Assembly: GCF_002210295.1 (NCBI RefSeq)
Contig: NZ_MWQH01000010.1
Span: forward strand, 1 to 64,000
Direction of reading: 5' to 3'
DNA: 64,000 bases
From: Fibrobacter sp. UWB5
GTDB lineage: Bacteria > Fibrobacterota > Fibrobacteria > Fibrobacterales > Fibrobacteraceae
This document shows, piece after piece, positions 4,725 through 27,018 of the stretch. Both the position numbers and the translations under genes were made by a program. The notes beneath the pieces are model-generated. The model searched no databases. It had not been told where the DNA came from and saw only the letters and a list, made by a program, of their open reading frames with translations. How positions within the stretch are numbered: the stretch's first letter is position 1; each line of letters starts with the position of its first letter.

Positions 4725-4737
4725 TGGTTGAACAGTC

Positions 4738-7706: not shown

Positions 7707-7724
7707 GCGATCATCAAATCAGGT

Positions 7725-9531: not shown

Positions 9532-9533
9532 AA

Positions 9534-9559: not shown

Positions 9560-9576
9560 AGGTGATTTATTTGAAA

Positions 9577-10734: not shown

Positions 10735-10862
10735 AGGTTTTGGATCCTTTTGTTTTCTGATTGGTGCAAATTTAACAGGAATCAATTTGAATTGCAAATT
10801 GCGAAAATTAGCCGACTTTGGCTCATTTTTGTACCAGAACTGATAAACTATATATGTCCTAA

Positions 10863-11204: not shown

Positions 11205-11230
11205 AGGGGCCTTTGGTACAGTGCTAAATG

Positions 11231-11268
11231 GTGGCATCCAGTGAGTCTATTCGCTGGATGCCACTTTT
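11231..11268 (+). terminator. Strong intrinsic terminator
   Basis: Perfect 11-bp arms GTGGCATCCAG and CTGGATGCCAC followed by TTTT. It separates the genes at 10863 and 11287. Confidence 0.85.
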
Positions 11269-11286
11269 ATATCTATATTGACTGAT

Positions 11287-12126: not shown

Positions 12127-12270
12127 TAGTTTCAGTGGGTTGTTACACATACTGTAAACTCCGTTGACCGCTGTAAACGGAACTGTTGCTTGGTTGTGGT
12201 TATTCTGCTTGTAATAGGATATTTTACTGGCCAGGGCAGTGTATCCGCACTTAGCTATGGAAGTTGCAAT

Positions 12271-12432
12271 ATGGCTATAAACCATTCTGATCGCTGCTGG
12301 TGGAGAACCTTTTGTGATGATGTTCGGCGAGCGTTTCGGCGAAACGACCTTGAAATGAAGGCGTACTTGTATGAGGCTTACGAACGTTACATGCACAAAC
12401 GGCTGATGCGTGAATATCAGTATTACAAGTAA
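12271..12432 (+). CDS. Small hypothetical protein (53 aa)
   Basis: Starts at ATG 12271 (MAINHSDRCWW) after a GGAAG site; a longer TTG frame from 12190 would add a hydrophobic N terminus. It is rich in Arg, Tyr and Trp with a helical YLYEAYERYMHKRLM segment. No family recognised. It lies 145 nt after the HEPN-like gene on the same strand and could be its partner. Confidence 0.4.
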   Translation: MAINHSDRCWWRTFCDDVRRAFRRNDLEMKAYLYEAYERYMHKRLMREYQYYK

Positions 12433-12788
12433 ATCGAGAACAATGAGTTAAAGGCTAAGGGACTGATTGGTAAACGGCTTTGAGCAATCCACACATTGAT
12501 TTCCTCCAGTAACTATATCTTTCCTATAAGTTCTGGAGCAAATCGTAGTTGTTACAACTGACTTTCTATAAATTCCTTGACTGCAGGATTTGATGTTATT
12601 GCAAATTGAAAGCGAATCCCACAAAAATGTTAAGGCGTTACCGAATAAAGTCGTCTTTACAGTCTATTGATGATTTAGAAGAGCGCTAAACGAGCCTTCA
12701 TGGCCTCCGCATTCATGGAAGCCGAGAAATAAATTCACAAAATGGTTTGTCTGACAGCAGTCTTATTATTTGGGGTAAAATTTGCGAA
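12433..12788. other. 356-nt gap without a recognisable gene
   Basis: AT-rich. The only coding possibility is a 20-codon frame from ATG 12627 (MLRRYRIKSSLQSIDDLEER), which lacks a ribosome site. No strong hairpins or repeats. It probably marks the end of the left accessory block. Confidence 0.5.
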
Positions 12789-15227
12789 TCAGTTCTTTAC
12801 GCAACGGACAGGATGTCCTCTTCCCTTATTGAGAGTCCCATAAGAGGCTGCTCCATTTGAATTCGAAATGTAAAAGTAATATCCTGATGTATATCCATCC
12901 CCTCCCTGGGTTGCAGTCCAAAAAGTAGCATAATATCCATCGCCATAAAAAGATCCTCCTTGATTGTATCCAACGGGAAAAGCAGAAAATCCTATAGCGT
13001 CAGTTCCATTGTTTGACCTATCCCATCCTGTTTTGGATCTCAAAATTTTTTGCCTATTGCCAAGTTCTTCAATTGTTGATAATAGATTTTTCCATTCTTC
13101 TAGGCGAGGGATGTGCCATCCTTCTGGACATATACCTTTTCGATTGACATCGCTTATAGAACAACGAAGTCCTTCGCCACAATCGTATGCGGCAGTATCC
13201 ATTGCTGCAGACCATGTGTAGTATCGGCCCGCTATTTCCCCGTCAGGATCATTTTTATTTGCCCACATATTTCCTTCTAAATTATGAGAAATATTCTTGT
13301 CCGCAAAATTCAAGTTTTCTGCCATCCAGGTAACACCATCTATAACCGTGGTCCTATAAACCTTTCCATCTCTTTCATCAGTCATAGTTCCGTATTCAAA
13401 ATCAGGATTAAAGCGATATTCCTTGGGGACAAGCCAATTCCAATCGTTAGTCATGTCAACCCAATTACCGTTTGACGCACAATAGTAACTAATGGTATCA
13501 ACGACTGCACCCTTGATGATTTTTCCGATTTCATCACAAGTCGTTTCATTATTTAGGTCTTTCTCGTATGAAGTCGCAAACCGCCAAAATACAGAGTTAG
13601 AGGAATCGCGGCAAATAAAGCGACTGTAAGTATTTTTGTAGTAAAGTTTGCTGTACTGATTGGTGACTGCGGCAATTTCACCAGCACGTTCCTTAGTGCA
13701 AGTTCCTATTCCATATTCTCGCCTCCAGAAATTACCCAGGAAAGCAGACTTATAGGGGGCTGCATAAGATGAGGAAGTTACAGATGTTTTAAACGTCGTC
13801 TGGGAAAGTATTGACCCCGCCCTTGCAAAATCTGCCATTTTGGCTTTTATACTATCGCTCCACTCTCCATCTTTTTCAAAATCGTCTGCGACTTCATCAA
13901 TTAGTTTTTGCAAAGCAGAGGCACTATTGGTCAGTCCATTGAACAAAAGCGTTACATTGTATAAAACCGTGTCGGCTGCCGTTTTGGGAACGATATCCTG
14001 TGGTTCTGTAAAGGTTCCTTCTAAGCCTAAAGACTTAATCCATTCATTATTCGCCTGTTCTCTTGCCGACGGAAAATCAAGACCGTTCTTTACCAAATAG
14101 GCGATTCGCTTTGATTGGATATGTGTAAACAAGTTGACCCTAGCAATGTACTCTACCCTTTTGTTTATTGTTTTTCGGTCCAAATATGTCGCATCGACTA
14201 TGGCGTTAAGTGTCAAGGAATCAGTCGTCGTCTTTTGGGAATCCAGTTCAAAAAATTTTCCTTGGCATTCAATCAGCATATAAATTGACTGTTGTCCGAT
14301 TGTGTCTGACTCCGAATAATACTTGTTGCCAAAGACTCCTATATAACTGGTACTATTGACATTTGTCGATTGATGCTGGACTCCCGTTTTATTAAGAGAC
14401 GCATTCAGTTCATGAACAACAACCTTCGGGGCGATAAGATACTGCGTACCCGTGGCAAGCACAGCATCTCTAATAGAGAATGTACTTGAGTCCACTTCGG
14501 CAGATGACATTGTTTCACTAGAAGATTCAGGGGCAAACGAAGAACTAGACACCGTTGCAGAACTCTGCACTTGACTAGATGAAGACAAACTAGATGAACT
14601 TGGACTAGTATTCGAAGATGAACTAGACTTGGCTTTTTCGCAGTTATCCAGATTCAACACATAAGTAACACCATCATCACACAGGTACATTTTTTCGCTG
14701 CTGCTTGAATTTTCTGTTTCATTGTCAGAACTGGATGAAGCTGGAACATCGCTAGAACTGGAGGCAACTTGAACCTCGCTTGAACTTGAATTCGTCACAC
14801 GGCTGGAACTTGATGCGACCGACTTTTCACTAGAACTGGATGAAATCGGCGCGTCGCTAGAACTGGAGGCAACTTGGACCTCGCTTGAACTTGAATTCGT
14901 CACACGGCTGGAACTTGATGCGACCGACTTCTCACTAGAACTGGATTCAACAGATTTTTCGCTAGAACTAGAGAGTACCTGAACTTCGCTTGAGGAACTG
15001 GACGAAACTATTTCAACCCATTTACCATCGGAACATTCTCTGAAGTTTTCGCTGTCCGCCGGCTTGATAACGAGACCTTCGTTAGATGAATCGCAAGGAA
15101 TTTCGGTCCCCTTGGAATCATTTGCGTTATCGTTCGCATTACTCGCAGAATCATCGCCGCAAGCGAAAAAGCAAAGAGCCGAAATAACGGATACGCTTGA
15201 CACAACATAGCGCAGGCTGTTTTTCAT
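12789..15227 (-). CDS. FISUMP-domain lipoprotein with poly-Ser linker
   Basis: Exported surface lipoprotein of 812 residues. The N terminus MKNSLRYVVSS leads to a lipobox-like CFFAC, then CSDGKWVEI and a long linker of SSSS blocks (about 80-250). The middle (about 260-620) is unassigned, with several Cys. The C terminus (about 630-812) is a FISUMP domain: VIDGVTWMAENLNF, GRYYTWSAAMD, GICPEGWHIPRLEEW, GYYATFWTAT and HPVRCVKN. This domain is abundant in Fibrobacter, and its role is unknown to me. I chose the ATG at 15227 because it begins the signal peptide; 30 upstream codons look spurious. Confidence 0.9.
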   Translation of the reverse strand: MKNSLRYVVSSVSVISALCFFACGDDSASNANDNANDSKGTEIPCDSSNEGLVIKPADSENFRECSDGKWVEIVSSSSSSEVQVLSSSSEKSVESSSSEKSVASSSSRVTNSSSSEVQVASSSSDAPISSSSSEKSVASSSSRVTNSSSSEVQVASSSSDVPASSSSDNETENSSSSEKMYLCDDGVTYVLNLDNCEKAKSSSSSNTSPSSSSLSSSSQVQSSATVSSSSFAPESSSETMSSAEVDSSTFSIRDAVLATGTQYLIAPKVVVHELNASLNKTGVQHQSTNVNSTSYIGVFGNKYYSESDTIGQQSIYMLIECQGKFFELDSQKTTTDSLTLNAIVDATYLDRKTINKRVEYIARVNLFTHIQSKRIAYLVKNGLDFPSAREQANNEWIKSLGLEGTFTEPQDIVPKTAADTVLYNVTLLFNGLTNSASALQKLIDEVADDFEKDGEWSDSIKAKMADFARAGSILSQTTFKTSVTSSSYAAPYKSAFLGNFWRREYGIGTCTKERAGEIAAVTNQYSKLYYKNTYSRFICRDSSNSVFWRFATSYEKDLNNETTCDEIGKIIKGAVVDTISYYCASNGNWVDMTNDWNWLVPKEYRFNPDFEYGTMTDERDGKVYRTTVIDGVTWMAENLNFADKNISHNLEGNMWANKNDPDGEIAGRYYTWSAAMDTAAYDCGEGLRCSISDVNRKGICPEGWHIPRLEEWKNLLSTIEELGNRQKILRSKTGWDRSNNGTDAIGFSAFPVGYNQGGSFYGDGYYATFWTATQGGDGYTSGYYFYISNSNGAASYGTLNKGRGHPVRCVKN
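14751..14951. repeat. 105-bp tandem duplication in the Ser-linker coding region
   Basis: The block starting GCTAGAACTGGAGGCAACTT at 14751 recurs at 14856 almost base for base for about 95 bp. Because 105 is divisible by three, the duplication keeps the frame and lengthens the linker by 35 residues, a sign of recent slippage or unequal exchange. Confidence 0.85.
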
Positions 15228-15664
15228 GGGGCACCCCTGGTTAAGTCTTTTTACAGGATAGAACTGTTTTCCTCTAATATAAATTATTTTAGCTGTTTTG
15301 TAAAAAAAACTATACATCTTATCATTTTTTCAGTCGGCTCTGTTAGGCCAGACCGTATAGCTGCGAACATGCTGCGGCGAGCCTGGTCACGATTTCAGCG
15401 AAAATTCTGCAATTCCGTAGTGAAAAAAAAAGCCTTGGATGGGCTTACGAAACCGACTTTTTTGGCTAAGACCGCCCGATTGTACAAAATGACCTGACAG
15501 AGCCCTAAAATCTTGCAAAAAGTGATATTTTCCAACCCGAAATATACTCCTTTTGCCCCCCAAAAAAATTTGCTTTAGCTCACACTCAGTATATTAATGT
15601 TTTTTTTTCTTTACTTTAGGCTCGTTTGAAGCTATATTTACTCCTATAGCACAACGAGGACTCT
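15228..15664. other. Divergent intergenic region with promoters and a MITE-like repeat
   Basis: Promoter of the FISUMP gene lies near 15250-15290 (TATAAATTA on the minus strand side is AT-rich). The plus-strand gene at 15665 has TTTACT (15610-15615), 17 nt, TATATT (15633-15638), where the -10 sits inside GCTATA-N8-TATAGC, then GAGGA 6 nt before the start. The repeat at 15336-15504 occupies the centre. Confidence 0.55.
15336..15504. mobile_element. MITE-like repeat, copy 1 (169 bp)
   Basis: Terminal inverted repeats GGCTCTGTTAGGCCA and TGACCTGACAGAGCC bound a non-coding core that includes TTCAGCGAAAATTCTGCAAT. A second copy at 19056-19223 keeps the ends and several core blocks. No transposase frame is inside, so it would depend on an enzyme elsewhere. 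No clear target duplication. Confidence 0.7.
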
Positions 15665-18600
15665 ATGCTCAAAAAACTGATTGCAGCCATTTTGTTCGTA
15701 TGCCCCCTGGCTTTTGCCGATTGGACCGGTGGCGTAAAAAAGCCTTCGACCATCGAAAAAGAGGGTAAGACATTCTATGAAATTGAGTCAGCAGAAAATT
15801 TGGCGTGGCTCGCGACCCAAGTTAACAAGGGAAATCCTAACTATAATGCAATTCTGAAAAATGATGTTGCGATTACTTCTAGTAAGGTTTCTTCAGAAAC
15901 AATCAAATGGATTTCAATTGGAACGGACTCAACGACATTTAATGGTGTTTTCGATGGCGCAGGTTACAAAGTGTCGGGATTCTATAGTCAAGGTAAATAC
16001 GCCGGTCTTTTTGGTTTTATTGGAGAAGGGGCTGTTGTCAAGAATTTAAAACTGGACAATGCTTTGGCTCAAGGTGATAATGGAATTGCTGGTATTTTGG
16101 CAGCTTCTTTTGGCGGAGATTCTATTATAGATGTTCAGGTTTCAGGGACTGTTCTTGCCGATAGTTTAGCAGGAGGCCTTGCGGGACAGTTGACGGGACG
16201 CAACTTTATTGTTCATTCTCGTTCGAATGCCAAGATTGGTTCCAAATACTATGCTGGTGGCTTTGTGGGTAGCGTAAAAGGCTCTGTTCATTTTTACAGA
16301 ACTGTAGGTGATTGCGCTTTAGACAGTGCTACAAATACGGGGGCCGTAGGTGGATTTGTGGGGTATGTTGAAAACAAGGCGTTCTTTTTTAATGATACGA
16401 ATGTAGCAAACATTATTTGGGGCGCGAAACAATCCTCGTCTGCCATAGGCGGCTTTGTTGGCAATTCAAAATCGATATCGACGACCCAGTTTGAGGAATG
16501 TGTCAATAAGGGAAATCTCTATGGTTCCAAGAAAAATAATATGGGTGGCTTTATAGGCAACAGCAATGGCCATGTGAATATTTTTACTGCGGTTAATGAG
16601 GGTAAAATAGAAAACGGAAATACTTGTGGAGGCTTTATTGGGAACTTTAATGCATCTCATGCTATCATTAGGGATGTTGTCAACAGGGGGTATATGGATA
16701 ATACGGCATCGGGTGGAATTATTGGAACTTCAGGTAATAAGGGGTCTTTTATAGACATTAGTAATGCAAGGAACAATGCTGTTTTGCATGGATATAGTGT
16801 CGCAGGGATTGTTTATTCCTTTGAGGGGGATACTCTACTAATCTCAAAATGTGTGAATACTGATTCGCTTTATGCAACTTCGTATAAAGGCACGTCTGGT
16901 GGAATTTTAGGTTTTGGTCGTGGATCCTCTAATAACGGTAAAATTGGATATGATGCTTATATCGTGATAGAAAATTGTACGAACGAGGGCTCCATTTCTG
17001 GGAGAGGTGCTATGGGTGGAATTGTCGGTAGCATTGATGATGATAAAATAATTCCGAATACCTATGTGAAAAAATCAAAAAATTTCGGAAATATATCAAG
17101 TGATTATACTTACATTTTTAATGGTGTTGGCGGTATTGCTGGATATGCGGAAAGAGCATATATACAGGATTGTATAAATTACGGAAAGGTAAGTGCTGAC
17201 TTAAAGGGAATGACTGAAGAAATGTACTTTGTTGGCGGAGTTGCTGGCTATGCAGGAAATGTATTTCATTCAATAAATGAAGGGGGGGTATCGGTTCATT
17301 CTGATAGCTCGAAATATAGTTTCAAAGCCGAGGTTATTGTCGCTGGAATTGCAGGAAATGCTGATTCCATAGAATATTGTAAAAATAAAGCTGATGTGAG
17401 TTTCGTTGGACAAACGCAAGGAGAAGAGTTCGTTCGTGCCTATGCGGCTGGCGTTGTGGGTTTTGCTGAAAGTTTGGTTCGCCTTTGCGAAAACGAAGGA
17501 CGAGTTTATTTGGATATGGGTGAGAAAGCATCTGCTGCCAATGCTGCGGGTGTTTATGTGGGACGCTCAAGCTCTTACCCGAGGTTAGGAGCGAACATAA
17601 ACAAGGGTCGAGTTTTATTGAAATCAAATAGCATACAAGTTGTTGATGACCACTGGAATTCTGGAGCGTGGTCGGCTTATTCCTATGTTGCTAATGCTGC
17701 TATTGAGTCGGGTACCCTTTCTATAACAGATTCTGTTGCCATTAATGGAACTTTGGTCCCAGGAAATGGAATGCGCTTAAATCAAAGAAATTGTGTCTAT
17801 TACGACAAGATGTTGAGGCCTGCAGAAAATGATACGTTGCCTGAGTTTGCAATGACTACAGCAGAAATGCAGACCGAAAAATTTGCATGGATGTTGAATA
17901 CATGCAATGGAAAACTGCCTAATTTAGGCTTGTGGAGTCAGAGCGGCAAGAATTATCCAGTCTTTGCAGATGAAAGCAATCATGCGATTTATAAGGTGAC
18001 CTTCCTGGATTCTTCAAAGGTGTTGAGCGTTTATACTTATAAAATAGATTCCAGCTTTACAAATTATAAGGGCAACATCATTACCATGGCCGAAGAGCCT
18101 GACCCGACTGACGGTGATGAAGACTTGCAATTCGGTTTTTGGGCCTACGGAGATTCCGCTATTTCTGCCAAGACGATTATCAATGGCGACTATGAACTTT
18201 ATGCGACATATGTACCGAAGGGATCTGTGCTTCAAACCGTTGTTTTCAAGACCGAAGATGGCGACATCGTTGCTGAATTTGTTCTGGCAGAGGGTGTCTC
18301 TGAAGTCACCTTACCCAATGCGCCTGCTAAAGTGGGGTACAGGTTTATCGGCTGGTATAATGGAACCCAAAAGCTGGGCTTGACTGGAGATAAGGTTTCT
18401 GTTGGGTCGGCAAAGACCTTGGTGGCAAAGTATGAGGCGCTCTTGTATAGGATTGCCTTTATAACGGGTATGGATACGTTGCAGGTGGATTCTGTTGCTT
18501 ATGGAAAAACTCCTGAATATAGGGGCAAAACCCCGATGGGTCAGTTGGAAGGGTTTGAGTTTAGTGGCTGGGTTCCGGCTATTGCGCCGGTTTCTGGTGA

Positions 18601-18991
18601 TGCGGAATATTGGGCGGCGTTCTCGCCGATAAGTTCTTCTAGCGCTGCATCCAGTTCTTCTGTGGCTTCGTCCAGTAGCATTTCGAGTAGCTCTGTAGCC
18701 TCAAGTAGTTCGGTAGTTGCGTCGTCTTCGAGTGCTGCAGAAAGCAGTTCCTCCGAGGAGCATACGATCGTTGTTTTGAACGCTGTTAAGCCCGCGTTCA
18801 ACCTTGCGGTAGACGGCATGACGCTTATGCTAACGAATGTGCAGGGCGGAGTTGTCCGCATCTTCGATAGCCTGGGTCACCTAGTTACGGCTAAGTCGCT
18901 AGCCGATGCAACGACAAGCATTACCTTACAGACCCCTGGTAGCTACATTGTCCGCATGAATGGCATGAGCAAGATCGTATCGCTTAAGTAG
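15665..18991 (+). CDS. GLUG-repeat surface protein with type IX-like sorting domain
   Basis: Large exported protein of 1108 residues. A signal peptide (MLKKLIAAILFVCPLAFA) is followed by about ten GLUG-type repeats (IAGILA, AGGFVGS, GGFIGN, GGIVGS; about 110-640), which build an elongated beta solenoid. Two InlB-type B-repeats follow at about 775-975 (YRFIGWYNG, FSGWVP), then a poly-Ser linker (about 980-1035). The last 70 residues (VRIFDSLGHLVTAKSL ... GSYIVRMNG) resemble the C-terminal signal of type IX-secreted proteins. Likely an adhesin or substrate-binding protein. It is flanked by MITE-like repeats, so the gene may have been moved or exchanged. Confidence 0.85.
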   Translation: MLKKLIAAILFVCPLAFADWTGGVKKPSTIEKEGKTFYEIESAENLAWLATQVNKGNPNYNAILKNDVAITSSKVSSETIKWISIGTDSTTFNGVFDGAGYKVSGFYSQGKYAGLFGFIGEGAVVKNLKLDNALAQGDNGIAGILAASFGGDSIIDVQVSGTVLADSLAGGLAGQLTGRNFIVHSRSNAKIGSKYYAGGFVGSVKGSVHFYRTVGDCALDSATNTGAVGGFVGYVENKAFFFNDTNVANIIWGAKQSSSAIGGFVGNSKSISTTQFEECVNKGNLYGSKKNNMGGFIGNSNGHVNIFTAVNEGKIENGNTCGGFIGNFNASHAIIRDVVNRGYMDNTASGGIIGTSGNKGSFIDISNARNNAVLHGYSVAGIVYSFEGDTLLISKCVNTDSLYATSYKGTSGGILGFGRGSSNNGKIGYDAYIVIENCTNEGSISGRGAMGGIVGSIDDDKIIPNTYVKKSKNFGNISSDYTYIFNGVGGIAGYAERAYIQDCINYGKVSADLKGMTEEMYFVGGVAGYAGNVFHSINEGGVSVHSDSSKYSFKAEVIVAGIAGNADSIEYCKNKADVSFVGQTQGEEFVRAYAAGVVGFAESLVRLCENEGRVYLDMGEKASAANAAGVYVGRSSSYPRLGANINKGRVLLKSNSIQVVDDHWNSGAWSAYSYVANAAIESGTLSITDSVAINGTLVPGNGMRLNQRNCVYYDKMLRPAENDTLPEFAMTTAEMQTEKFAWMLNTCNGKLPNLGLWSQSGKNYPVFADESNHAIYKVTFLDSSKVLSVYTYKIDSSFTNYKGNIITMAEEPDPTDGDEDLQFGFWAYGDSAISAKTIINGDYELYATYVPKGSVLQTVVFKTEDGDIVAEFVLAEGVSEVTLPNAPAKVGYRFIGWYNGTQKLGLTGDKVSVGSAKTLVAKYEALLYRIAFITGMDTLQVDSVAYGKTPEYRGKTPMGQLEGFEFSGWVPAIAPVSGDAEYWAAFSPISSSSAASSSSVASSSSISSSSVASSSSVVASSSSAAESSSSEEHTIVVLNAVKPAFNLAVDGMTLMLTNVQGGVVRIFDSLGHLVTAKSLADATTSITLQTPGSYIVRMNGMSKIVSLK

Positions 18992-19012
18992 GCTCTGTCA
19001 GGCTAATTCGTA
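18991..19012. repeat. Partial third copy of the MITE-like terminus
   Basis: GGCTCTGTCAGGC starts at the last base of the preceding stop codon, and the following bases match the inverted right end of the full repeats for about 22 nt before similarity fades. It looks like a decayed copy in opposite orientation. Confidence 0.5.
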
Positions 19013-19055
19013 CTTTTTTACAAAGACTGCCAAAACGCTGCGAAAATGACCGTTC

Positions 19056-19223
19056 GGCTCTGTTAGGTCAAACTGTATAGCTACAGAAACGCTGCGGCGG
19101 TCAGATTGCCTTTTTCAGCGAAAATTCTGCAATTCCGTAGTCAATTTGCAGTTTCCAAGGGGCTGACGGATTGGGAAAGTTTTGCTAAGACCGCCCGATT
19201 GTACAAAATGGCCTGACAGAGCC
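19056..19223. mobile_element. MITE-like repeat, copy 2 (168 bp)
   Basis: Same ends (GGCTCTGTTAGG and CCTGACAGAGCC) and orientation as the copy at 15336, with shared internal blocks (TTCAGCGAAAATTCTGCAAT and GCTAAGACCGCCCGATTGTA). With copy 1 it brackets the 3.3-kb GLUG-protein gene. Confidence 0.7.
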
Positions 19224-19298
19224 AACAGCTTTTCGCACACGATGCAAAATAACCTAAAGTCCCGCCTTTTTTAGCTTGTAGGCGGGGAGGAGTGAAAG

Positions 19299-19388
19299 AT
19301 GAAGAAACGCAAGTCCTTCAAGGACTGTATCGTAAAGCCGGGCGAAAAGAGCCCCTACGCAAACCAGCTTGTCGATTTGGCCTTATGA
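19299..19388 (+). CDS. Possible 29-residue basic peptide
   Basis: ATG 19299 is preceded by GGGGAGGA, an unusually good ribosome site, 7 nt upstream, and by a CCCGCC/GGCGGG hairpin. The peptide begins MKKRKSFKDCIVKPGEKS and is Lys-rich. No family known to me. The strong site is the only support, so it may be a remnant. Confidence 0.3.
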   Translation: MKKRKSFKDCIVKPGEKSPYANQLVDLAL

Positions 19389-19829
19389 CATCACCACAGC
19401 CCACGGCTCCAGAGGTAAGCTCTTCTCGCTCACATGGCCGTTCCGGAATGTTCGCTCGAAGACTTACCTTCTTCCGCCTTAGGGCTGCATTCTAGCCGCC
19501 GAAATGTCTTCCCGGCCCCCGAGCCGGGATCTCCTCTGGCCGCTTGCAAAAGAAAGCCCCGTTTTCCTATGCAAACTGCGCTCCGGCTCTGCCTGCTCCG
19601 CACGCCATTAAGACCGTTCGCCTTACGTCTTACTCTCACCACAGCCCCAGCTTAACGCATGGGGCTTTACGGCACACAGAAATTACGGCCTTCGGCCGAC
19701 ATCGTTTTGCGGTCAGGCACTCGCCTCCGCTTTAGCCTTGTCAAAATGTCTGTCTTTTTTATTGACACTAATGTAAAAAAAACGTATACTTAGATGAGGT
19801 GTGGCAATATTTTGATGGAGTTCTTCATT

Positions 19830-21302
19830 ATGCAAAAGAAAACCCTTATAACTGTATATTTATTTGCTTTCCTTTGCATAGCGGACGCCTTTGCACAGGA
19901 TAAAGACATCTTGATTGCACAGGGTGTCTTTAACAACTGTCAGTCATTGTACTTATGCGAATGGAATTCGTATGTCGAACCCGTATGGGATGAAAAACTG
20001 CAAAGCTATAAAGATTACCTTGCCGGTAGTGTTTATTTAGGAACAGATTTGGAAGACGAAACAAGGTATCTTATCTTTAAAACCAACGGAATGGATATTA
20101 AACCCTACGGCATTCAGGCAACCCACGGGCTTATATTGCAGCAAGGACACTCATATCAAATTGTAGGAACAGGGCGTGTAGAAGAAAGCGCCACGGGAGC
20201 GGTTTCTATCGGCGTTATGAACAGTCTAGACATGACTGTATTTGAAATTGAACAGAGCTTCAATGGGGAATTTAAGTCCAGTGTTTATAACCACTGTTCC
20301 AAGAGTGAAGGCGGAAACCTTTACATAAATGCAGGAAAATTGAAGCCAAGCGAAGGGGAATCCGCAGGTTATTTCATATTACAAGAAATCAAAATCATTG
20401 AAAATGAAATTTCCTGCAACGACGTGAATCACAAGGATTCCATTAAGATAGATGACCTAGAAGATGGGGACGACGTCACTCTTACGGGCGGAACGTGGTT
20501 CGCCTATGATGACAACAACACAAGAGATCGTCAAGGAAACTACTCTCAGTCCTCCTTTACCAACATAGACAGCCTAGTTTTACCCGCAACAAACGGCTCC
20601 GAATATATGGCAGGGCTAGAAGGAATTGCTCTTGATGCTGGTTATTACAATGGTGCGCCCTTTGTTGTGCTGGGCTTAAAAATGAACAAGGATTCCTCGG
20701 GCTATGATTTTAGCTCCTGCGATGTGATTGCTTACGATTACATCGGAGCTCAACATCAATTTAAAGTCGTCATGGAAGGTGATTACAATGGTGAATTAAC
20801 GGAAGATAATAATCACTACGTTATGGCAAGTAAATCCGTTTCATGGAAGACTGTTTCATTTAGTTTGGGGGCACTTGCACAAGAACCGAATTGGGGGTAT
20901 ACATATCGGCTGGATATGACCAAAATCGGAAAGTTGCTGTGGGATGTCCGTGGTCGTATTCCCGATTACCTTTATGTCGACAATGTTCGTTGCCTAAAAC
21001 GCAGTGTTGTTCCAGTTGATTCGAATGATGTCAAATCCAGTTCTAGCGAAGTTGAGTCCAGTTCTAACGAACATACAACTTTCATTGGGGCATCTAATGG
21101 CCGTTTGCAGATTAGTGCAAATTATGGAACCGATGTAAGGGTGAATGTGTTCGACATGTTGGGCAACAAAGTCAAGAGCCTACGTTTGACACTCGCGAAG
21201 GATGACAATACAATTGTACTGACAGACCTTGCCCGTGGAAAATATATCGCAAAAATTTCTGGAAAAAACGCTAGTGGCGTCGTGCGCATAAATATTCGCT
21301 AG
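19830..21302 (+). CDS. Exported protein with type IX-like sorting domain
   Basis: A 490-residue secreted protein. The signal peptide is MQKKTLITVYLFAFLCIADAFA, so I start at ATG 19830 (GGAG 9 nt upstream) rather than 19794. Two beta-rich modules follow; the second (about 210-400; KIDDLEDGDDVTLTGGTWF ... YLYVDNVRCLK) resembles carbohydrate-binding or CIA30-like jelly rolls. A short SSSS linker (about 410-425) leads to a C-terminal sorting domain (VRVNVFDMLGNKVKSL ... GKYIAKISG). A polysaccharide-binding role fits a fibre degrader but no catalytic motif is seen. Confidence 0.75.
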   Translation: MQKKTLITVYLFAFLCIADAFAQDKDILIAQGVFNNCQSLYLCEWNSYVEPVWDEKLQSYKDYLAGSVYLGTDLEDETRYLIFKTNGMDIKPYGIQATHGLILQQGHSYQIVGTGRVEESATGAVSIGVMNSLDMTVFEIEQSFNGEFKSSVYNHCSKSEGGNLYINAGKLKPSEGESAGYFILQEIKIIENEISCNDVNHKDSIKIDDLEDGDDVTLTGGTWFAYDDNNTRDRQGNYSQSSFTNIDSLVLPATNGSEYMAGLEGIALDAGYYNGAPFVVLGLKMNKDSSGYDFSSCDVIAYDYIGAQHQFKVVMEGDYNGELTEDNNHYVMASKSVSWKTVSFSLGALAQEPNWGYTYRLDMTKIGKLLWDVRGRIPDYLYVDNVRCLKRSVVPVDSNDVKSSSSEVESSSNEHTTFIGASNGRLQISANYGTDVRVNVFDMLGNKVKSLRLTLAKDDNTIVLTDLARGKYIAKISGKNASGVVRINIR

Positions 21303-21412
21303 TATAGGGAACAACAAGACAAGCGACTACAAAACGCCTTAATTTCATAACGCAAATATCTTTTTACATCAAAATCAGTCCATAAACGCCCGAAAAAAGC
21401 GTGTATATATAT

Positions 21413-21433
21413 GAATAGGGACAGTCCCTATTC
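21413..21433. promoter_or_regulatory. Perfect 10-bp-arm palindrome upstream of brnT
   Basis: GAATAGGGAC-A-GTCCCTATTC. It lies 155 bp before the toxin start and may be an operator, or the terminator of the gene ending at 21302 (no U-tract). Confidence 0.4.
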
Positions 21434-21587
21434 GCCCGACGGAGGTTCATCCGTTAAAAGCGATATGTACATGCGGAAGAATCGTAAAATTAAAAGATAT
21501 GCCCATAAACAATCCAATATTGTTAAAAAGGAAATATCTTCTATTGACGATGAATCTTCTTGTATATATATTATATATACCACATAT

Positions 21588-21881
21588 ATGATTTTCGAAT
21601 GGGATGAAAACAAGGCCGAAACAAATTTTATCAAACACAAGGTGACTTTTGAAGAGGCTCAAACAGTTTTCTATGATGAAAATGCTCTTTTGCTTGCGGA
21701 TGAAAAACATTCAGATGAAGAAGATCGTTTTATTCTAATGGGAATGTCGTCAATGATGAATACGCTCTTGGTGTGTTTTTGCGAACGAGGTTCAGAAGAA
21801 AACGAAATTATCCGAATTATTTCATCTCGAAAAGCGAATAAAAAAGAAACAGAACAATACTGGAAAAGGAGGTTGCCATGA
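21588..21881 (+). CDS. brnT: BrnT family toxin
   Basis: Type II toxin of 97 residues, an RNase of the BrnT fold. Family features are visible at the N terminus (MIFEWDENKAETNFIKHKV, then TFEEAQTVFYD) and the C terminus (RIISSRKANKKETEQYW). I start at ATG 21588; the longer frame from 21411 adds 59 residues without family similarity. An AT-rich palindromic block (TATATATTATATATA) directly before the ATG is a likely autoregulatory operator. The antitoxin overlaps by four bases. Confidence 0.9.
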   Translation: MIFEWDENKAETNFIKHKVTFEEAQTVFYDENALLLADEKHSDEEDRFILMGMSSMMNTLLVCFCERGSEENEIIRIISSRKANKKETEQYWKRRLP

Positions 21882-22111
21882 AGAAAAACTACGATTTCAG
21901 CAATGCAGTCAAAAACCCGTATGCCAAAAAGTTAAAGAAGACGATTTGTATAAACATCAGCGAATCGGTTCTCGCTTATTTCAAGGATCTGGCGGAAAAG
22001 ACAAATATTCCGTACCAGACATTAATCAACATGTTCCTTGAGCAAGCCAAGGCTGATAAAATGGAGCCTAAATTCGTTTCGAAACCAAATCGCAAAAAAC
22101 AAGTGGCATAA
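21878..22111 (+). CDS. brnA: BrnA family antitoxin
   Basis: A 77-residue ribbon-helix-helix-type antitoxin expected to bind BrnT and repress the operon. The sequence MKKNYDFSNAVKNPYAKKLK, then ICINISESVLAYFKDLAEKT and IPYQTLINMFL, is characteristic. Its ATG overlaps the toxin stop (ATGA), so the pair is translationally coupled. Confidence 0.9.
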   Translation: MKKNYDFSNAVKNPYAKKLKKTICINISESVLAYFKDLAEKTNIPYQTLINMFLEQAKADKMEPKFVSKPNRKKQVA

Positions 22112-22302
22112 TTCATATCATAAATGTCAAGGATTGCCCTAGGCTTAATGGAACTGATGGAACGGTGACCAAGATTGATTATTTAGGCCAGTTGCACGGA
22201 ACGTGGGCGTCAACAGTCGCTATCATACCATCCGAAGATGAGTACGAAATTATTCTTCCCGCCGAAATAGCAACACCAATGTCGGATATAATGAAAAAAT
22301 AA
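22104..22302 (+). pseudogene. DUF4314-like remnant without a normal start
   Basis: In the frame +2 relative to brnA, translation gives GTDGTVTKIDYLGQLHGTW and IIPSEDEYEII, the core of the DUF4314 fold found in many mobile elements. The open frame reaches back only into the end of brnA and offers no ATG, GTG or TTG before the conserved part, apart from a GTG inside it (about 22165). I read it as a 5'-truncated gene; an ATT or ATA start is possible but unlikely. Confidence 0.5.
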
Positions 22303-22358
22303 AGCATCCGTCAGCCAAGGGTGATGTCCATTAACCCAAGGCGAACGGATGATGCTTT
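22302..22358. terminator. Bidirectional terminator hairpin
   Basis: AAGCATCCGT and ACGGATGATGCTTTT pair with a small bulge, with an inner GGGT/ACCC stem. It separates the DUF4314 remnant from the convergent recombinase gene. Confidence 0.6.
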
Positions 22359-22981
22359 TAGGCCGCATTCTGGCGGTCTTGCCGTAGTAATTTGTAGTAG
22401 GTTGTTCGTTTAAGCCCCAACTGACGCATTGCCGCCGTCGCCGTCAGCGTACCAGATTTGACTTGAGTGATTGCGTCATCCCAGCCTTCAGGCTTCGGAA
22501 TCGCCTTTTTACCGAAATGAACTCCGCGCTCCAACGCGAGCTTTATACCTTGTTTTTGCCTAGATTTTATGTTAAGTCTCTCACGCTCACTAACATAACT
22601 AAGAATTTGTAATACAAGGTCAGCGACAAAGCGCTTATCAAGATTACCGTTGTTATTGGTCGTATCAAGTAGGGGCATGTTGATGACTTTTATGTCGCAG
22701 CCCAATGTTTGGGTTATATGCTTCCACGCTTGCTGTATTAGGTTGTACGACCTCGAGATTCTATCCAAATCAACCACCACAACGCAATCTCCGGGACGCA
22801 TGGCGGCAAGAGTTGTTTCGGTGCCAACTAATGCGCCCCAAGCTTTTCGATTAAAATCTTTTCCTGAGGCCTTGTCACAGTAAAGATAACGTTCATCTGT
22901 AATATATGGTTTTAGTGCTTCGATTTGACGCGATAAATTTTGCGTGTTACTGGACACACGGGCATACCCAAAAACAGCCAT
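22358..22981 (-). CDS. Serine recombinase (resolvase/invertase family)
   Basis: Small serine recombinase of 207 residues. The catalytic Ser is in FGYARVSS (about residue 10), with conserved Asp/Arg in VVVDLDRISRSY (about 68-80) and the E-helix region (about 115-145). A C-terminal helix-turn-helix (TATAAMRQLGLKRTTYYKLL) binds the site. AAAGGAGG precedes the ATG. Upstream lie the GACTG double box and two palindromic CGAATGTTCG sites that could be its recombination site. Likely role: dimer resolution or DNA inversion for the island. Confidence 0.92.
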   Translation of the reverse strand: MAVFGYARVSSNTQNLSRQIEALKPYITDERYLYCDKASGKDFNRKAWGALVGTETTLAAMRPGDCVVVVDLDRISRSYNLIQQAWKHITQTLGCDIKVINMPLLDTTNNNGNLDKRFVADLVLQILSYVSERERLNIKSRQKQGIKLALERGVHFGKKAIPKPEGWDDAITQVKSGTLTATAAMRQLGLKRTTYYKLLRQDRQNAA

Positions 22982-23024
22982 AATGGCCTCCTTTGTTTGA
23001 TGTTAATTAAATAAAGAACTTAAG

Positions 23025-23049
23025 CAGTCCCGTAGACTGGCTGTCAGTA
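23025..23049 (-). promoter_or_regulatory. GACTG double box, copy 1 (serine recombinase)
   Basis: Minus strand: degenerate TACTG, then CGGGACTGC with its GACTG exactly 20 bp downstream. The proximal box lies 44 nt upstream of the recombinase ATG. Same spacing as four other copies. Confidence 0.65.
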
Positions 23050-23071
23050 TTCGGTAAAGTCAATCAGCTAT

Positions 23072-23113
23072 GCGAATGTTCGGACAAGTTATTCAATCAA
23101 GCCGAATGTTCGC
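23072..23113. repeat. Paired CGAATGTTCG sites
   Basis: GCGAATGTTCGG (23072-23083) and CCGAATGTTCGC (23102-23113) each contain the imperfect palindrome CGAA-TG-TTCG and together can pair as a 12-bp stem with two G-U pairs. TTTTTTT follows at 23119. Either a recombinase binding site with two subsites 30 bp apart, or a plus-strand terminator. Confidence 0.5.
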
Positions 23114-23309
23114 ATTGCTTTTTTTGTGTTTTGCGCATTAATTTAAGCCGTACTTTGATATTGGAAATGAGTGTGTGGTATAGTACACTTTAACGGCCTA
23201 CTTTGTGCACGATTTTTGATGATGACGATGTCGGGTTTACTTCAATAGGGTTTGTGTATATATGTGGGAATCTTACGGGAAAAAAATTGAAGGGTACAAT
23301 GTTCTATAT

Positions 23310-23546
23310 TAATATATATATGTGATAAGTGTACCAATAGGGGAGCTTTGTAAGCGTTTCTACTTAGTGATCGTACACCGATTTGGTTGGGGCAACGAAA
23401 AAATTTCAGCAGCATATAAACTTTTATTGGTTCGCTAGGGTGCCTTAGCAACCAATGCATCATGCATTCTCTATTGGTCAAAGCAAGCGGATGGGGACGG
23501 AAACAGTTGGTTCATATATACGATGTCCCCGCCCGCTTGTTTTTTA
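23310..23546 (+). ncRNA. Candidate structured RNA with alternative hairpins
   Basis: A promoter-like TATATTAATATAT lies near 23303-23316. Downstream, ATTGGTT (23426-23432) pairs with AACCAAT (23450-23456), enclosing GCTA/TAGC. The same AACCAAT can instead join the AATGCAT/ATGCATT hairpin (23454-23468) or pair with ATTGG at 23473. The region ends in a strong terminator: CAAGCGG/CCGCTTG plus GGGGAC/GTCCCC, then TTTTTT (23484-23545). No plus-strand gene follows, so this would be a free RNA converging on the ArdC-like gene. No known family recognised; the 5' end is a guess. Confidence 0.45.
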
Positions 23547-24398
23547 TTGTTTTTCGTTTAGGATGTATTCAACAGCTCGTTCCGCTTTGGAGGCTGCGAT
23601 TGGCAAAAGAGAATAATCATTGCTTAGCTTTTCAATCCATCCTTCGATATAAGCAGCATTTTGTTCTAAGGTACTTTTTGTGTCAATATTGAATGTCCTG
23701 AGTAAAAAAGCCGAACCAAGTTCTGCAATCAACTCTTCGCGAGAATACTCTTTTGACCCAAATGTGGTTGGGGAATTATTTACCCCAAATCTACCTAATC
23801 TGTGTTTCGCTCCCGTACTATGACAAACTTCGTGAAGTAAAGTGCTATAGTAATCTTCCGACGACTTGAAATTTACGATTGGAGCAATGTTGATGTAATC
23901 ATATTTTTTTGAGTAGTAGGCATCATTTGAATTATGCTTAAGTTCAATGTGTTCTCTAGTGAGGTATTGATTTATATTTTCTTCAACTTGTTTGATTGGT
24001 GAAACGATTGTGTTATTGGACGCCTTAGGTTGCCATCGTGGCTGGATACCATCACAATCAGCAACCCTAAAAACCGTGTATGTACGCAGATATGGCACTT
24101 TTTTAATTGTTACTTCCCCTTTTTCGTCGGTTTCTGCCTTTTCAAAAGTATGCCAAAAGAAAACTCGACGGCCTTTACTTCCTTTATGTAGACGACCTTT
24201 TAACATCTGTATCTGATGCCAAGTTATGAATTCCGCTGATTCACCACCTAAAATCAATTGGTTCAAAAAAGAATAAGCCTTTCCCGTTGCAAAGCTAATT
24301 GCGCATCGGTTTCCAAACCATGGTTGCTCCCACGGAATGCAACCTTGTTTTAACTGTTCGATGATTTTGTTTGTAATTTCTTCGTACGCCTTGTTCAT
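23544..24398 (-). CDS. ArdC-like antirestriction / zincin metallopeptidase protein
   Basis: A 284-residue protein of the ArdC type found on plasmids and integrative elements, where it binds ssDNA and protects incoming DNA from restriction. The N-terminal domain (about 1-120) has the family phrases GCIPWEQPW, SFLNQLILGG, KGSKGRRVFFW and RTYTVF. The C-terminal zincin domain has HEVCH (about 189-193) and the third ligand Glu in REELIAELGSAF. A GACTG double box lies 48 nt upstream of the ATG. It implies past conjugative or natural transfer of the module. Confidence 0.88.
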   Translation of the reverse strand: MNKAYEEITNKIIEQLKQGCIPWEQPWFGNRCAISFATGKAYSFLNQLILGGESAEFITWHQIQMLKGRLHKGSKGRRVFFWHTFEKAETDEKGEVTIKKVPYLRTYTVFRVADCDGIQPRWQPKASNNTIVSPIKQVEENINQYLTREHIELKHNSNDAYYSKKYDYINIAPIVNFKSSEDYYSTLLHEVCHSTGAKHRLGRFGVNNSPTTFGSKEYSREELIAELGSAFLLRTFNIDTKSTLEQNAAYIEGWIEKLSNDYSLLPIAASKAERAVEYILNEKQ

Positions 24399-24445
24399 TT
24401 TGACCTCGCTTGTTGTCTTGTCATAGATGAAATAAAAGACTATGG

Positions 24446-24470
24446 CAGTCCCGCTGTTCGTCTGCCAGTC
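24446..24470 (-). promoter_or_regulatory. GACTG double box, copy 2 (ArdC-like gene)
   Basis: Minus strand GACTG and GACTG with starts 20 bp apart, the second as CGGGACTGCC; TATGAC follows 19 nt after GACTGC as a possible -10. Confidence 0.7.
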
Positions 24471-24493
24471 GTTATGATGAGGCGCAAAAGAAA

Positions 24494-24523
24494 AATCACC
24501 CTACTCCTCCAAGTAGGGTGATT
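24494..24523 (-). terminator. Terminator of the SpoVG-like gene and its downstream ORF
   Basis: Perfect 12-bp arms AATCACCCTACT and AGTAGGGTGATT, followed on the minus strand by a T-rich run. Confidence 0.85.
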
Positions 24524-24545
24524 CGACTAAGGAAGAAAAATCGTG

Positions 24546-24599
24546 TTAGCCGGAAACGCGCTTCTTGCTTGGCCTGTAGACGATGCGCTTTTTAGCCAT
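24546..24599 (-). CDS. 17-residue basic peptide coupled to the SpoVG-like gene
   Basis: Tiny frame MAKKRIVYRPSKKRVSG with 7 Lys/Arg. Its ATG overlaps the stop region of the SpoVG-like gene (ATGGCTAA), with GGAGG 6 nt upstream inside that gene, an arrangement suited to translational coupling. A strong terminator follows 22 nt after the stop. The excellent ribosome site and compact placement support real translation, but a peptide this short could be chance. Confidence 0.5.
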   Translation of the reverse strand: MAKKRIVYRPSKKRVSG

Positions 24600-24957
24600 T
24601 TGTAGCCTCCGGTGTTGCGATTGCTTGCTGGTATTTCTCTAGTACGGCGTTTTCGACATGTTCGCGTAATGCCTTTGTGATGGGGTTGCAAACAGAACGA
24701 TATTCATCACCCTTGAAGAACGGATCTATGGGGTAGTTTACAAACAGGCCGTTCTCACCACTCATTACACGTAGTCCACGAATTATGAGCTGGTCGCCAA
24801 GAATAACGCTTGCAAGTGCCTTTACGCTTCCAAGCGAAGGTCCTTCGTGAAAAGGGAATACCTTGCAATCGGTCACTTGCATGGCTGAGCTTGTTTGGCT
24901 TTCGAGCTGTTGGATGCGGGTGATAAGGTCTGCCTTCTTCATGCTTTGATAGTTCAT
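24592..24957 (-). CDS. SpoVG-family protein
   Basis: A 121-residue member of the SpoVG family, nucleic-acid-binding regulators first known from sporulating Firmicutes but also present on plasmids. Matching features: a beta-strand core KVFPFHEGPSLGSVKALASV, then the strand VILGDQLIIRGLRVMSG, the phrase NGLFVNYPIDP, and the C-terminal helix NPITKALREHVENAVLEKYQ. An N-terminal 28-residue helix is added. The gene has AAAGGA before its ATG, a GACTG double box 62 nt upstream, and a 17-codon ORF overlapping its stop. Likely a regulator within the island. Confidence 0.8.
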   Translation of the reverse strand: MNYQSMKKADLITRIQQLESQTSSAMQVTDCKVFPFHEGPSLGSVKALASVILGDQLIIRGLRVMSGENGLFVNYPIDPFFKGDEYRSVCNPITKALREHVENAVLEKYQQAIATPEATNG

Positions 24958-25018
24958 ATCGAATCCTTTTTGTTTTTGTTTGTCATGTCATTGACATAGA
25001 AGTGATAAATGGCCAAAG

Positions 25019-25043
25019 CAGTCCCGTGGATTCCGTGTCAGTC
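25019..25043 (-). promoter_or_regulatory. GACTG double box, copy 3 (SpoVG-like gene)
   Basis: Minus strand GACTGACA and CGGGACTGC with GACTG starts 20 bp apart; TATGTC follows 19 nt after GACTGC. Confidence 0.7.
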
Positions 25044-25066
25044 CCTTGCAGCTATAAACAAAAAAA

Positions 25067-25084
25067 GAACCCCGTTAGGGGTTC
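25067..25084 (-). terminator. Terminator of the 25088-25489 gene
   Basis: GAACCCC-gtta-GGGGTTC, then six T on the minus strand. Confidence 0.85.
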
Positions 25085-25087
25085 CTC

Positions 25088-25489
25088 TTAGACAGTCATG
25101 GTGTAGGCGTCCTCGCACCAGCCTTGTATGTAAGCAGGGTATTCGCCGTAAGTGCCGTAGTAGAAGGTGACGCCATCTGCTTGGTTGTCTGCGATGATGT
25201 CCTTGCGGTGCGCCATCAGGTAGGCTCGGTCCTTTGCTGTGGCTAACCTCCAATCGGATGCGCGTTCTCGTTCGTTGGCAGTCCACTTGGCATGTCCGTA
25301 TAGGCGCTCTCCGGCAAGTCTAATAGCCTGGATTGCGTCAGCGCGCTTGGTGAGGTCATAGTTATACTTGGTCGCAGCCTCGCGGACATACTGTTCAAGC
25401 TCTTCGCCGTCACCCATGCCCCAGTTTTGATATATGTATGCGAGGCATTTGCCGCCATGTCTTATTTGAAATATAATCCTATCGCTCAT
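25088..25489 (-). CDS. Hypothetical island protein
   Basis: Unrecognised 133-residue soluble protein beginning MSDRIIFQIRHGGKCLAYIYQNWG. It is rich in Tyr and Ala with helical segments (EELEQYVREAATKY) and ends near GYIQGW-type aromatic residues. It belongs to the same monocistronic style of unit as its neighbours: GACTG double box 41 nt upstream of the ATG and its own terminator. Clearly part of the mobile module, function unknown. Confidence 0.65.
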   Translation of the reverse strand: MSDRIIFQIRHGGKCLAYIYQNWGMGDGEELEQYVREAATKYNYDLTKRADAIQAIRLAGERLYGHAKWTANERERASDWRLATAKDRAYLMAHRKDIIADNQADGVTFYYGTYGEYPAYIQGWCEDAYTMTV

Positions 25490-25529
25490 AATAATTCACT
25501 TTATTTATGAAGCTCATGTTATATGATGG

Positions 25530-25554
25530 CAGTCCCGCCGCTGCCGTGCCAGTC
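25530..25554 (-). promoter_or_regulatory. GACTG double box, copy 4 (25088-25489 gene)
   Basis: Minus strand GACTGGCA and CGGGACTGCC, GACTG starts 20 bp apart. Confidence 0.7.
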
Positions 25555-25577
25555 TGATGAGGGTTCGGCAAATAAAA

Positions 25578-25594
25578 AAGGGGCATAGCCCCTT
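25578..25594 (-). terminator. Terminator of the 25598-26029 gene
   Basis: AAGGGGC-ata-GCCCCTT followed by a T-run on the minus strand. Confidence 0.85.
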
Positions 25595-25597
25595 GTA

Positions 25598-26029
25598 CTA
25601 ACAATGCTCCATAGGGTCATAATCGCGAGCGTCATAGGTACATACATAGCGGCACTCAGCGTACAGCGTGCCACCCTTGACGAGGTGCTTGGGACGGCTC
25701 TTGTAGGTCTTGTGCTCGGTACTCTCGACTATGTGGTGGTCTTCGATGTGGCGCACCTTGCGAGTCACAACCCATCCAAGCACTCCGACCAAGACCGCAT
25801 TGCAGGTGTACTTGTCAGCCCATTCATCGACGATGGGGTTCGGCTTCTTGCTGAAGCGTTTCCATCTTGCTGAAGTCAGTCGTTCTTTGGAATGGATGCT
25901 CACAACTACGCGATTGCATCCGTCTCTTTCGCACGCTTGCTGTTTCCTCCAGTAGTCTTTGAAATCATCCGTGAAGTATCCTGGTCTGATCAGGACATTG
26001 TGACTTTCTCGTTTTACGCCATAGTGCAT
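25598..26029 (-). CDS. Hypothetical island protein, Cys/His-containing
   Basis: Unrecognised 143-residue basic protein (MHYGVKRESHNVLIRPGYFTD...). It has CERDGC near residue 33, one hydrophobic stretch (CNAVLVGVLGWVV) that could be a core strand or weak membrane segment, and a Tyr/Asp-rich end with CRYVC. AAGGAGA precedes the ATG. A GACTG double box lies 55 nt upstream and a terminator lies just after the stop, as in the other genes of this module. Confidence 0.65.
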   Translation of the reverse strand: MHYGVKRESHNVLIRPGYFTDDFKDYWRKQQACERDGCNRVVVSIHSKERLTSARWKRFSKKPNPIVDEWADKYTCNAVLVGVLGWVVTRKVRHIEDHHIVESTEHKTYKSRPKHLVKGGTLYAECRYVCTYDARDYDPMEHC

Positions 26030-26083
26030 AAAGCATCTCCTTGGTTAAGTTTTCGTGTCATAGATATCGATATCGACTAGGTG

Positions 26084-26108
26084 CAGTCCCGTGCAGATTG
26101 CGTCAGTC
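26084..26108 (-). promoter_or_regulatory. GACTG double box, copy 5 (25598-26029 gene)
   Basis: Minus strand GACTGACG and CGGGACTGC with GACTG starts 20 bp apart; TATGAC follows 20 nt after GACTGC. Confidence 0.7.
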
Positions 26109-26359
26109 GCTTGGATTTGTTATGGGTGAAAACGCCGTAAGGGGCTATTTAACGGGCTTTGTTGGTTTACGTTCACAATAAAAAATCAAAGTGTTTTTTA
26201 GGGTACGGGTTTTTCCTAAAAAAGGAATCTCCATATCGGAGAAAGCGCCTTCGAAATCGAATGAATAAAAATCGGTTGTCAATAACCCCATACCCCAAAA
26301 GTGAGCAAAGTCAGAAGGGGCATTTTTCCAAAATTTTGGGGGCTGGGGAAGGATACAAG

Positions 26360-26390
26360 AAAGGCCTCTTGCATAATGCGAGAGGCCTTT
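26360..26390 (-). terminator. Terminator of tRNA-Arg
   Basis: Ten-bp arms AAAGGCCTCT and AGAGGCCTTT immediately after the tRNA 3' end on the minus strand. Confidence 0.8.
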
Positions 26391-26394
26391 ACTA

Positions 26395-26467
26395 TACCCG
26401 GGCCGCGACTCGAACGCGGATATCATCCTTAGGAGGGACGTATTTTATCCCGTTAAATTACCCAGGC
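26395..26467 (-). tRNA. tRNA-Arg (anticodon CCT)
   Basis: Reads AGG codons. The full cloverleaf is visible: acceptor GCCTGGG/CCCGGGT, D stem ATTT/AAAT, anticodon stem CGTCC/GGATG with loop CTCCTAA (anticodon CCT), T stem CCGCG/CGCGG with loop TTCGAGT, discriminator A. CCA is not encoded. A consensus promoter lies upstream and a terminator follows. Its D stem is all A-T, unusual for a core tRNA, which suggests it came with the mobile module. Confidence 0.9.
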
Positions 26468-26477
26468 GAGTGGCGAT

Positions 26478-26506
26478 AATATAGAAACATACGCATTAAT
26501 TGTCAA
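26478..26506 (-). promoter_or_regulatory. Promoter of tRNA-Arg
   Basis: Minus strand TTGACA, 17 nt, TATATT, about 11 nt before the tRNA 5' end. The best consensus promoter in the window, and it supports TATATT as the usual -10 in this organism. Confidence 0.85.
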
Positions 26507-26945
26507 AAAAACGGCTTTTCTGCTATTCAATTGGATAGAACGCGAAAAGGTGTTTTTGCGAATTCTTGATTCGAACACTTGCCGAACAGTAAAAAAAGCA
26601 GTGTTTTGGAGCGCGTGCTATCTGAAATTTGATACAGTGACTGGCTTTGACGCGATTTATAGAACGCGGAACTTTTTTCAGTTCGAACTTGACATTGAAT
26701 GGTTTTATAACTATTTTCGAACTCGTGGATAGAACGAGGCTGCTGTCGGTCGTGTTCGACTAAATGTCGTTATGCCTTGTCTTTCCTGACATAAACGCGA
26801 TGTGAGACTGTTCGAAAATCGTTCGATTAGGCCGATACACATCACGACACACTGTTCGACACAGGTTGGTGTGTTTGTATGTGAAATTGGCGCTATTAAG
26901 CGAAAATCGCAAGGTTTAGTGTTCGGGCGCGGTATATCCTAAATA
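26507..26945. other. Non-coding region with tRNA-like fragments
   Basis: No gene. TTCAATTGGATAGAACGCG (26526-26544) matches 17 of 19 bases of the D-arm region of the damaged tRNA at 26946. Further GGATAGAACG or TATAGAACG pieces occur near 26659 and 26728, and TTCGAA/TTCGAC T-loop-like motifs recur about eight times. CGCGAAAA/TTTTTGCG near 26541 forms a hairpin. Probably debris of repeated integration and excision at a tRNA gene. Confidence 0.45.
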
Positions 26946-27018
26946 GATTGGATAGTTCAGTTGGATAGAACGGGTCCCTCCTAAGGATCAGACTCGCGTT
27001 CGAATCGCGATCCGGGTA
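26946..27018 (+). pseudogene. Damaged tRNA-Arg (CCT), probable attachment-site scar
   Basis: From the D arm to the 3' end it is a good tRNA: D stem GTTC/GAAC, anticodon stem GGTCC/GGATC with loop CTCCTAA, T stem TCGCG/CGCGA, discriminator A. The 5' acceptor strand GATTGGA pairs poorly with TCCGGGT: one A-G mismatch and three G-U pairs, where GCCCGGA would pair well. This is the pattern left when an element inserts and replaces the 5' part of a tRNA gene. No consensus -35 is present. It may still be weakly functional. Confidence 0.6.

Follow-up and report, generated by a model that had tools for sequence, protein, structure and literature searches.

Within the first 64,000 nucleotides of contig NZ_MWQH01000010.1 of Fibrobacter sp. 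UWB5 (hereafter the window), we identified an integrated element whose right end carries five genes, each preceded by a promoter-like site of a type that also fills a gene region in T4-like jumbo phages. We refer to these as class-3 sites. The observations are the architecture of the sites, their arrays in the phages, the matching of site types between phages and islands, the homology of the genes behind them, and the borders of the element. Together, they make it probable that the five units are satellite-like, phage-responsive cassettes, with promoters of a jumbo-phage class that would be read by a phage factor and induced on infection. To our knowledge, based on a limited literature search, this promoter class of T4-like jumbo phages has not been reported before.

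On the minus strand, exact copies of GACTGN15GACTG occur at 24446-24470, 25019-25043, 25530-25554 and 26084-26108, and a fifth copy at 23025-23049 has TACTG as its first box. Each stands immediately 5' of an ATG, and all five end in CGGGACTGC, which is found only once more in the window, against 0.38 expected by chance. The distance from the CGGGACTGC box to the ATG is 39-60 nt, and TATGAC or TATGTC lies downstream in three of the five copies. The copies, their genes, the constant second box and the three hexamers had been noted in a preliminary description of this DNA, and all of them hold; its distances of 41-62 nt are the same apart from counting. The two boxes it described are, however, only half of the motif, and it missed both the phage arrays and an additional constant element, an AT (usually TAT) 11 nt after box 2. 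The full architecture reads ACTG-N12-CGGGACTGC-N11-AT, usually followed about 6 nt on by TATGAC. With boxes kept and spacers variable, the arrangement looks like that of a promoter or activator site and is probably read by a trans-acting regulator, as had been suggested.

The bare repeat is not informative across the genome. With up to one mismatch, GACTGN15GACTG gives 56+44 matches in the UWB5 genome and 41+41 in a reversed control, and we rejected it as a genome-wide signal because this frequency is at chance level. The clustering of four exact copies on one strand within about 2 kb is not due to chance, since 2000 Markov shuffles of the region never exceeded one exact copy. The 3.36-Mb genome contains the composite ACTG-N12-CGGG..T.C-N11-AT five times, and these are precisely the five cassette sites. 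Two bacterial promoter classes were also considered and rejected. Matches to a sigma70 promoter (TTGACA-N17-TATAAT) are at shuffle level in the region, with none 5' of HYG, IIF (two cassette genes of unassigned function), the SpoVG-like gene or the recombinase on their strand, and the sites have no conserved -35 hexamer. A sigma54 promoter (GG-N10-GC) does not fit, as the copies at 23049, 25043 and 26108 carry neither GG nor GC where this pattern needs them.

A scan of viral contigs led to a T4-like phage of 348 kb, IMGVR_UViG_3300037512_000782 (phage A), the only contig with many clustered copies among the matches listed. In the complete scan of this phage, 73 short composites (CGGG..[TC].C-N11-AT) were found on the plus strand, 71 of them inside a region at 231-297 kb, where they precede mostly small genes. 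Their consensus consists of box 1 GACTGGC, box 2 CGGCGGG[A/G]CTGCC and the AT, which was invariant in all 72 copies first aligned, with TATACAA a few nucleotides on and then a Shine-Dalgarno sequence and ATG. A matrix trained on phage A alone returned exactly the five cassette sites as its top five in the window, scoring four of them at 29-42 bits and the fifth at 12.5, with the next match at 4.4. Through island homology and generalised patterns, we found two further phages, IMGVR_UViG_3300028887_000067 (phage B, 308 kb), with CCGGGGCTCC as box 2, and IMGVR_UViG_3300037455_000372 (phage C, 355 kb). Each of the three has one array region, with 71, 43 and 24 plus-strand sites in phages A, B and C, respectively, and almost all of them are intergenic (69, 37 and 23 of the sites in the bounds tested). 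Matches to a stricter generalised pattern in the IMG/VR database were limited to these three contigs. The phage genes were called with a simple open reading frame script, and the contigs may be fragments. The presence of these promoters throughout a gene region of T4-like jumbo phages suggests that their regulator is encoded by the phage.

The sites fall into three types that differ in box 2, with CGGGRCTGC in type A, CGGGGCTCC in type B and CGGG[CT][TGC]TCCC in type C and its phage, while box 1 stays ACTG-like. In a leave-one-out test, phage-trained matrices assigned 131 of 138 phage copies to their own phage. Because phages B and C, like the type C islands, have an altered box 2 and a preserved box 1, the boxes vary separately and a direct repeat is peculiar to type A; the earlier proposal that the repeats are bound by one activator dimer does not survive this. 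In many phage copies, box 2 lies within a perfect or near-perfect dyad whose arms vary from copy to copy (loci L223 and L224, phage A at 240-264 kb; L256-L257, phage B). The phage A dyads have a 3-nt CTG loop. Two outer pairs equal or exceed the highest value among 1000 shuffles, and the dyads may form a DNA or RNA hairpin that has a separate function. We rejected an N4-like hairpin, of DNA or RNA, as the recognised feature, because many phage A copies do not form it, nor do the island copies that were folded.

Cassettes of this kind are present in six Fibrobacter islands, namely, the window and the genomes G065, G103, G138 (Fibrobacter succinogenes RUG14497), G075 and G080. By the phage-trained matrices, all 16 sites in the window, G065, G103 and G138 are type A, and all seven in G075 and G080 are type C. 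The type A islands were mostly found with the type A pattern; the type C islands were found via HYG homology and not via the motif, so the difference in type is not an artefact of the search. HYG is 89% identical between the window and G075, although their promoter types differ. These two islands occupy the same tRNA-Arg(CCT), their flanks are about 88-94% identical, and their DNA alignment stops at 26064, inside the promoter. Neither the recombinase nor the ArdC nor the SpoVG identities follow the site type; the ArdC proteins of the two type C islands resemble each other, and those of type A are about as distant from one another as from type C. As no conserved island protein follows the type, the type-specific factor is probably not among them and is probably phage-encoded.

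We propose that an infecting jumbo phage makes a factor, either a MotA-like activator or a dedicated sigma factor, that would read the type-specific box 2 and direct RNA polymerase to the cassettes when the phage is of the matching type. The cassettes would be separate promoter-gene units, silent in uninfected cells, and infection would bring about the production of ArdC, the SpoVG-like protein, HYG and IIF, along with the recombinase in four of the six islands. These products might serve island transfer, protection of the island DNA or interference with the phage, in keeping with the satellite lifestyle that we infer. Transcription may start near position 48 of the site, within TATGACA/TATACAA. 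This placement follows from the spacing, because many copies have a Shine-Dalgarno sequence directly after it that a later start would cut off, and under it box 1 would span about -48 to -44 and box 2 about -31 to -22, with the AT near -11/-10. A bolder version, for and against which we see the case as evenly balanced, is a lock-and-key code in which an island is readable only by a jumbo phage of the matching type and the specificity of all its promoters shifts together as the phages diverge. A novel sort of phage sigma factor or activator might underlie it. Such a readable promoter code would connect islands that look silent in the chromosome with one particular group of giant phages.

The cassettes might instead be phage genes that were captured with their promoters and kept passively, with no regulation to the benefit of the island. 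Gene flow between phages and islands is evident, and relatives of ArdC, SpoVG, HYG and IIF, four of the five cassette families, lie behind class-3 sites in the phages. We nonetheless consider passive capture unlikely, given that the promoter type is uniform within each island and has changed while HYG remained so similar, that the reading frames are intact where decay would be expected without use, and that the serine recombinase, for which blastp found no relative in the phages, also has a site in four of the six islands. Another possibility is that a host-encoded sigma factor or activator reads the sites and that phages and islands both exploit it. Type A sites are found before a sigma-like family in G064 and G117, and the UWB5 genome has two members of this family; the same genome has no composite site outside the five cassettes. 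A single host factor is quite improbable, because specificity differs among phages A, B and C and among islands of very close hosts. The sites could also be recombination sites used by the serine recombinase to shuffle cassettes, since gene content behind them varies strongly and the recombinase accompanies all six islands. The fixed short distance to the ATG, the Shine-Dalgarno sequence right behind and the promoter-like spacing make this highly improbable, as do the arrays in phages where blastp gave no relative of the recombinase and a recombinase clade that is independent of site type.

Several points weigh against cassettes induced by a phage factor. The pairing of phage and host is based on binning and homology, and the sigma70-family protein that the phages share could act at late promoters instead. 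Pfam gave no DNA-binding domain for 40 phage genes preceded by sigma70-like promoters, although this was not a full search. The recombinases of G138 and G080 have no class-3 site, and in G064 and G117, type A sites precede a sigma-like chromosomal gene by about 400 nt. The latter sites (L231:12764 and 17675, L235:13744) are intergenic and on the minus strand, with two of the three at about 400 nt 5' of related sigma-like genes. Those genes have no Pfam match, and a second, sigma70-like promoter lies nearer to them.

The three phages have 100 mutual best-hit genes in common, and the phage C terminase matches terminases of the T4 superfamily. Fibrobacter is supported as the probable host by a 164-kb contig of this phage family that was binned with a genome of the genus (99% complete) and by a Fib_succ_major protein that phage A encodes downstream of a class-3 site. 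Elsewhere in the phages (L211-L228, L242-L257, L278-L295), we found two other promoter classes. One is sigma70-like (TTGACA-N17-TGCTATATTT) and similar to the host-type promoter found at the tRNA of the island; it precedes genes such as those for RtcB, Thy1, NAPRTase, NADAR and an IF-3-like protein. The other, [TG]ATAAACT[AG], is frequent in structural-gene regions and resembles T4 late promoters. Class 3 is distinct from both and is essentially confined to one region per phage. All three phages encode a sigma70-family protein. Phage A has two with regions 2 and 4 (L211:14688-15500, minus strand, and L220:18173-18937), of which the former alone is clearly related to proteins of phages B and C.

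The borders of the element are set by empty sites in five relatives, in which window positions 56-2188 are joined straight to 26949 onward. Tyrosine integrases lie at its left, and the class-3 module and a tRNA-Arg of its own lie at its right (Table 1). The class-3 sites are confined to the last 4 kb, which does not bear out the island-wide regulon of the preliminary description. Insertion turns the first bases of the host tRNA-Arg(CCT) from GCC to GAT, likely weakening the acceptor stem; the tRNA-Arg(CCT) of the element is intact and inverted relative to it, and the same pair is found in G065 and G075. Strong terminator-like stem-loops occupy three of the four gaps between cassette genes, so most units look monocistronic. 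Pfam searches gave no family for HYG or IIF. Neither has a match among cultured phages, and HYG has none in plasmids; their predicted structures (predicted local distance difference test scores of 39 for HYG and 65 for IIF) were too poor for a structure search. Phage C has an orthologue of the ArdC relatives of phages A and B.

A BrnT/BrnA toxin-antitoxin pair at 21411-22111 is convergent with the module and is the only possible defence content found in the element of the window, where PADLOC gave no match among the open reading frames scanned. Restriction-modification genes, type I or type III-like, lie beside the module in G065, G080 and G138. The class-3 site of the recombinase is about 190 nt upstream in G065 and degenerate in G103. 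Directly upstream of the module in G103 and G080 are tniA/tniB/tniQ-like genes (L233:12428-16285; L271:587-4960), and the module thus rides on at least two unrelated carriers.

Table 1. Features of the integrated element and its insertion site in the window.
Feature	Position	Strand	Remarks
Integrated element, 24.8 kb	2189..26948		Empty site in five related genomes, 7-bp core TGGATAG
Tyrosine integrase, left end of element	2323..3411	+	
Second tyrosine integrase	3441..4724	-	
Serine recombinase, resolvase/invertase type	22358..22981	-	
Class-3 type A promoter-like site of serine recombinase	22998..23049	-	Box 1 TACTG
ArdC-like anti-restriction protein	23544..24398	-	Relatives in phages A and B, 29-33%
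Class-3 type A promoter-like site of ArdC	24419..24470	-	
Terminator-like stem-loop, SpoVG-ArdC gap	24493..24524	-	
SpoVG-like protein	24592..24957	-	55% identical to phage B protein
Class-3 type A promoter-like site of SpoVG-like gene	24992..25043	-	
Terminator-like stem-loop, IIF-SpoVG gap	25062..25089	-	
IIF, 133 amino acids, function unassigned	25088..25489	-	56% identical to phage A protein behind class-3 site
Class-3 type A promoter-like site of IIF	25503..25554	-	
Terminator-like stem-loop, HYG-IIF gap	25578..25594	-	
HYG, 143 amino acids, function unassigned	25598..26029	-	45% identical to phage A protein behind class-3 site
Class-3 type A promoter-like site of HYG	26057..26108	-	GACTG ... 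CGGGACTGC ... TATC ... TATGAC
tRNA-Arg(CCT) brought by element	26395..26467	-	
Host tRNA-Arg(CCT)	26946..27018	+	Integration target (5' end)

Among known promoters, the closest parallel is with the middle promoters of T4, which have a MotA box (TGCTTtA) centred at -30 and 12 bp from a -10 element (TAtaaT) and involve sigma appropriation by AsiA (PMC2988021). Like these, class-3 sites occur in many copies per phage, in T4-like phages, and have a phage-specific box instead of a -35 element (PMC2988021); under the start proposed above, box 2 would lie at about -31 to -22, and there is no conserved -35 hexamer. Unlike them, class-3 sites have a GC-rich CGGG core, a further ACTG box some 20 bp upstream and three divergent types, and they lack a clear TATAAT -10, with only the AT invariant downstream. 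Neither MotA nor AsiA was identified in the phages, where Pfam was applied to the 40 candidate genes and not as a full search.

Island genes that follow the regulation of a helper are known from SGI1 and its relatives, whose promoters match the AcaCD sites of the helper and thereby time island gene expression (PMC4207636, PMC5058578, PMC7826253). The recognition of island sites by phage-trained matrices and the uniform type within each island are similar, whereas SGI1 has as its helper a conjugative plasmid whose activator is known and the suspected helper here is a jumbo phage with a proposed factor. PLE satellites are chromosomal islands activated by infection with the lytic phage ICP1 (PMC7567579), and our comparison with them concerns the chromosomal island and its infection-triggered activation, predicted here, and not gene homology. 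Islands of the I55 class have a tRNA or tmRNA site, a tyrosine integrase and defence genes, and their transduction by jumbo phages was reported recently (PMC12595487). The Fibrobacter islands are alike in tRNA integration with direct repeats, in a tyrosine integrase near one end and perhaps in the defence cargo of several members, with a jumbo phage only suspected as vehicle; they differ in their genus, in the use of the 5' end of tRNA-Arg and in the phage-type promoters on their cassettes. A term search of the I55 paper gave no link between helper promoters and island genes (PMC12595487), and helper sensing is not addressed there. The class-3 cassettes suggest a way in which islands that travel with jumbo phages might detect their helper.

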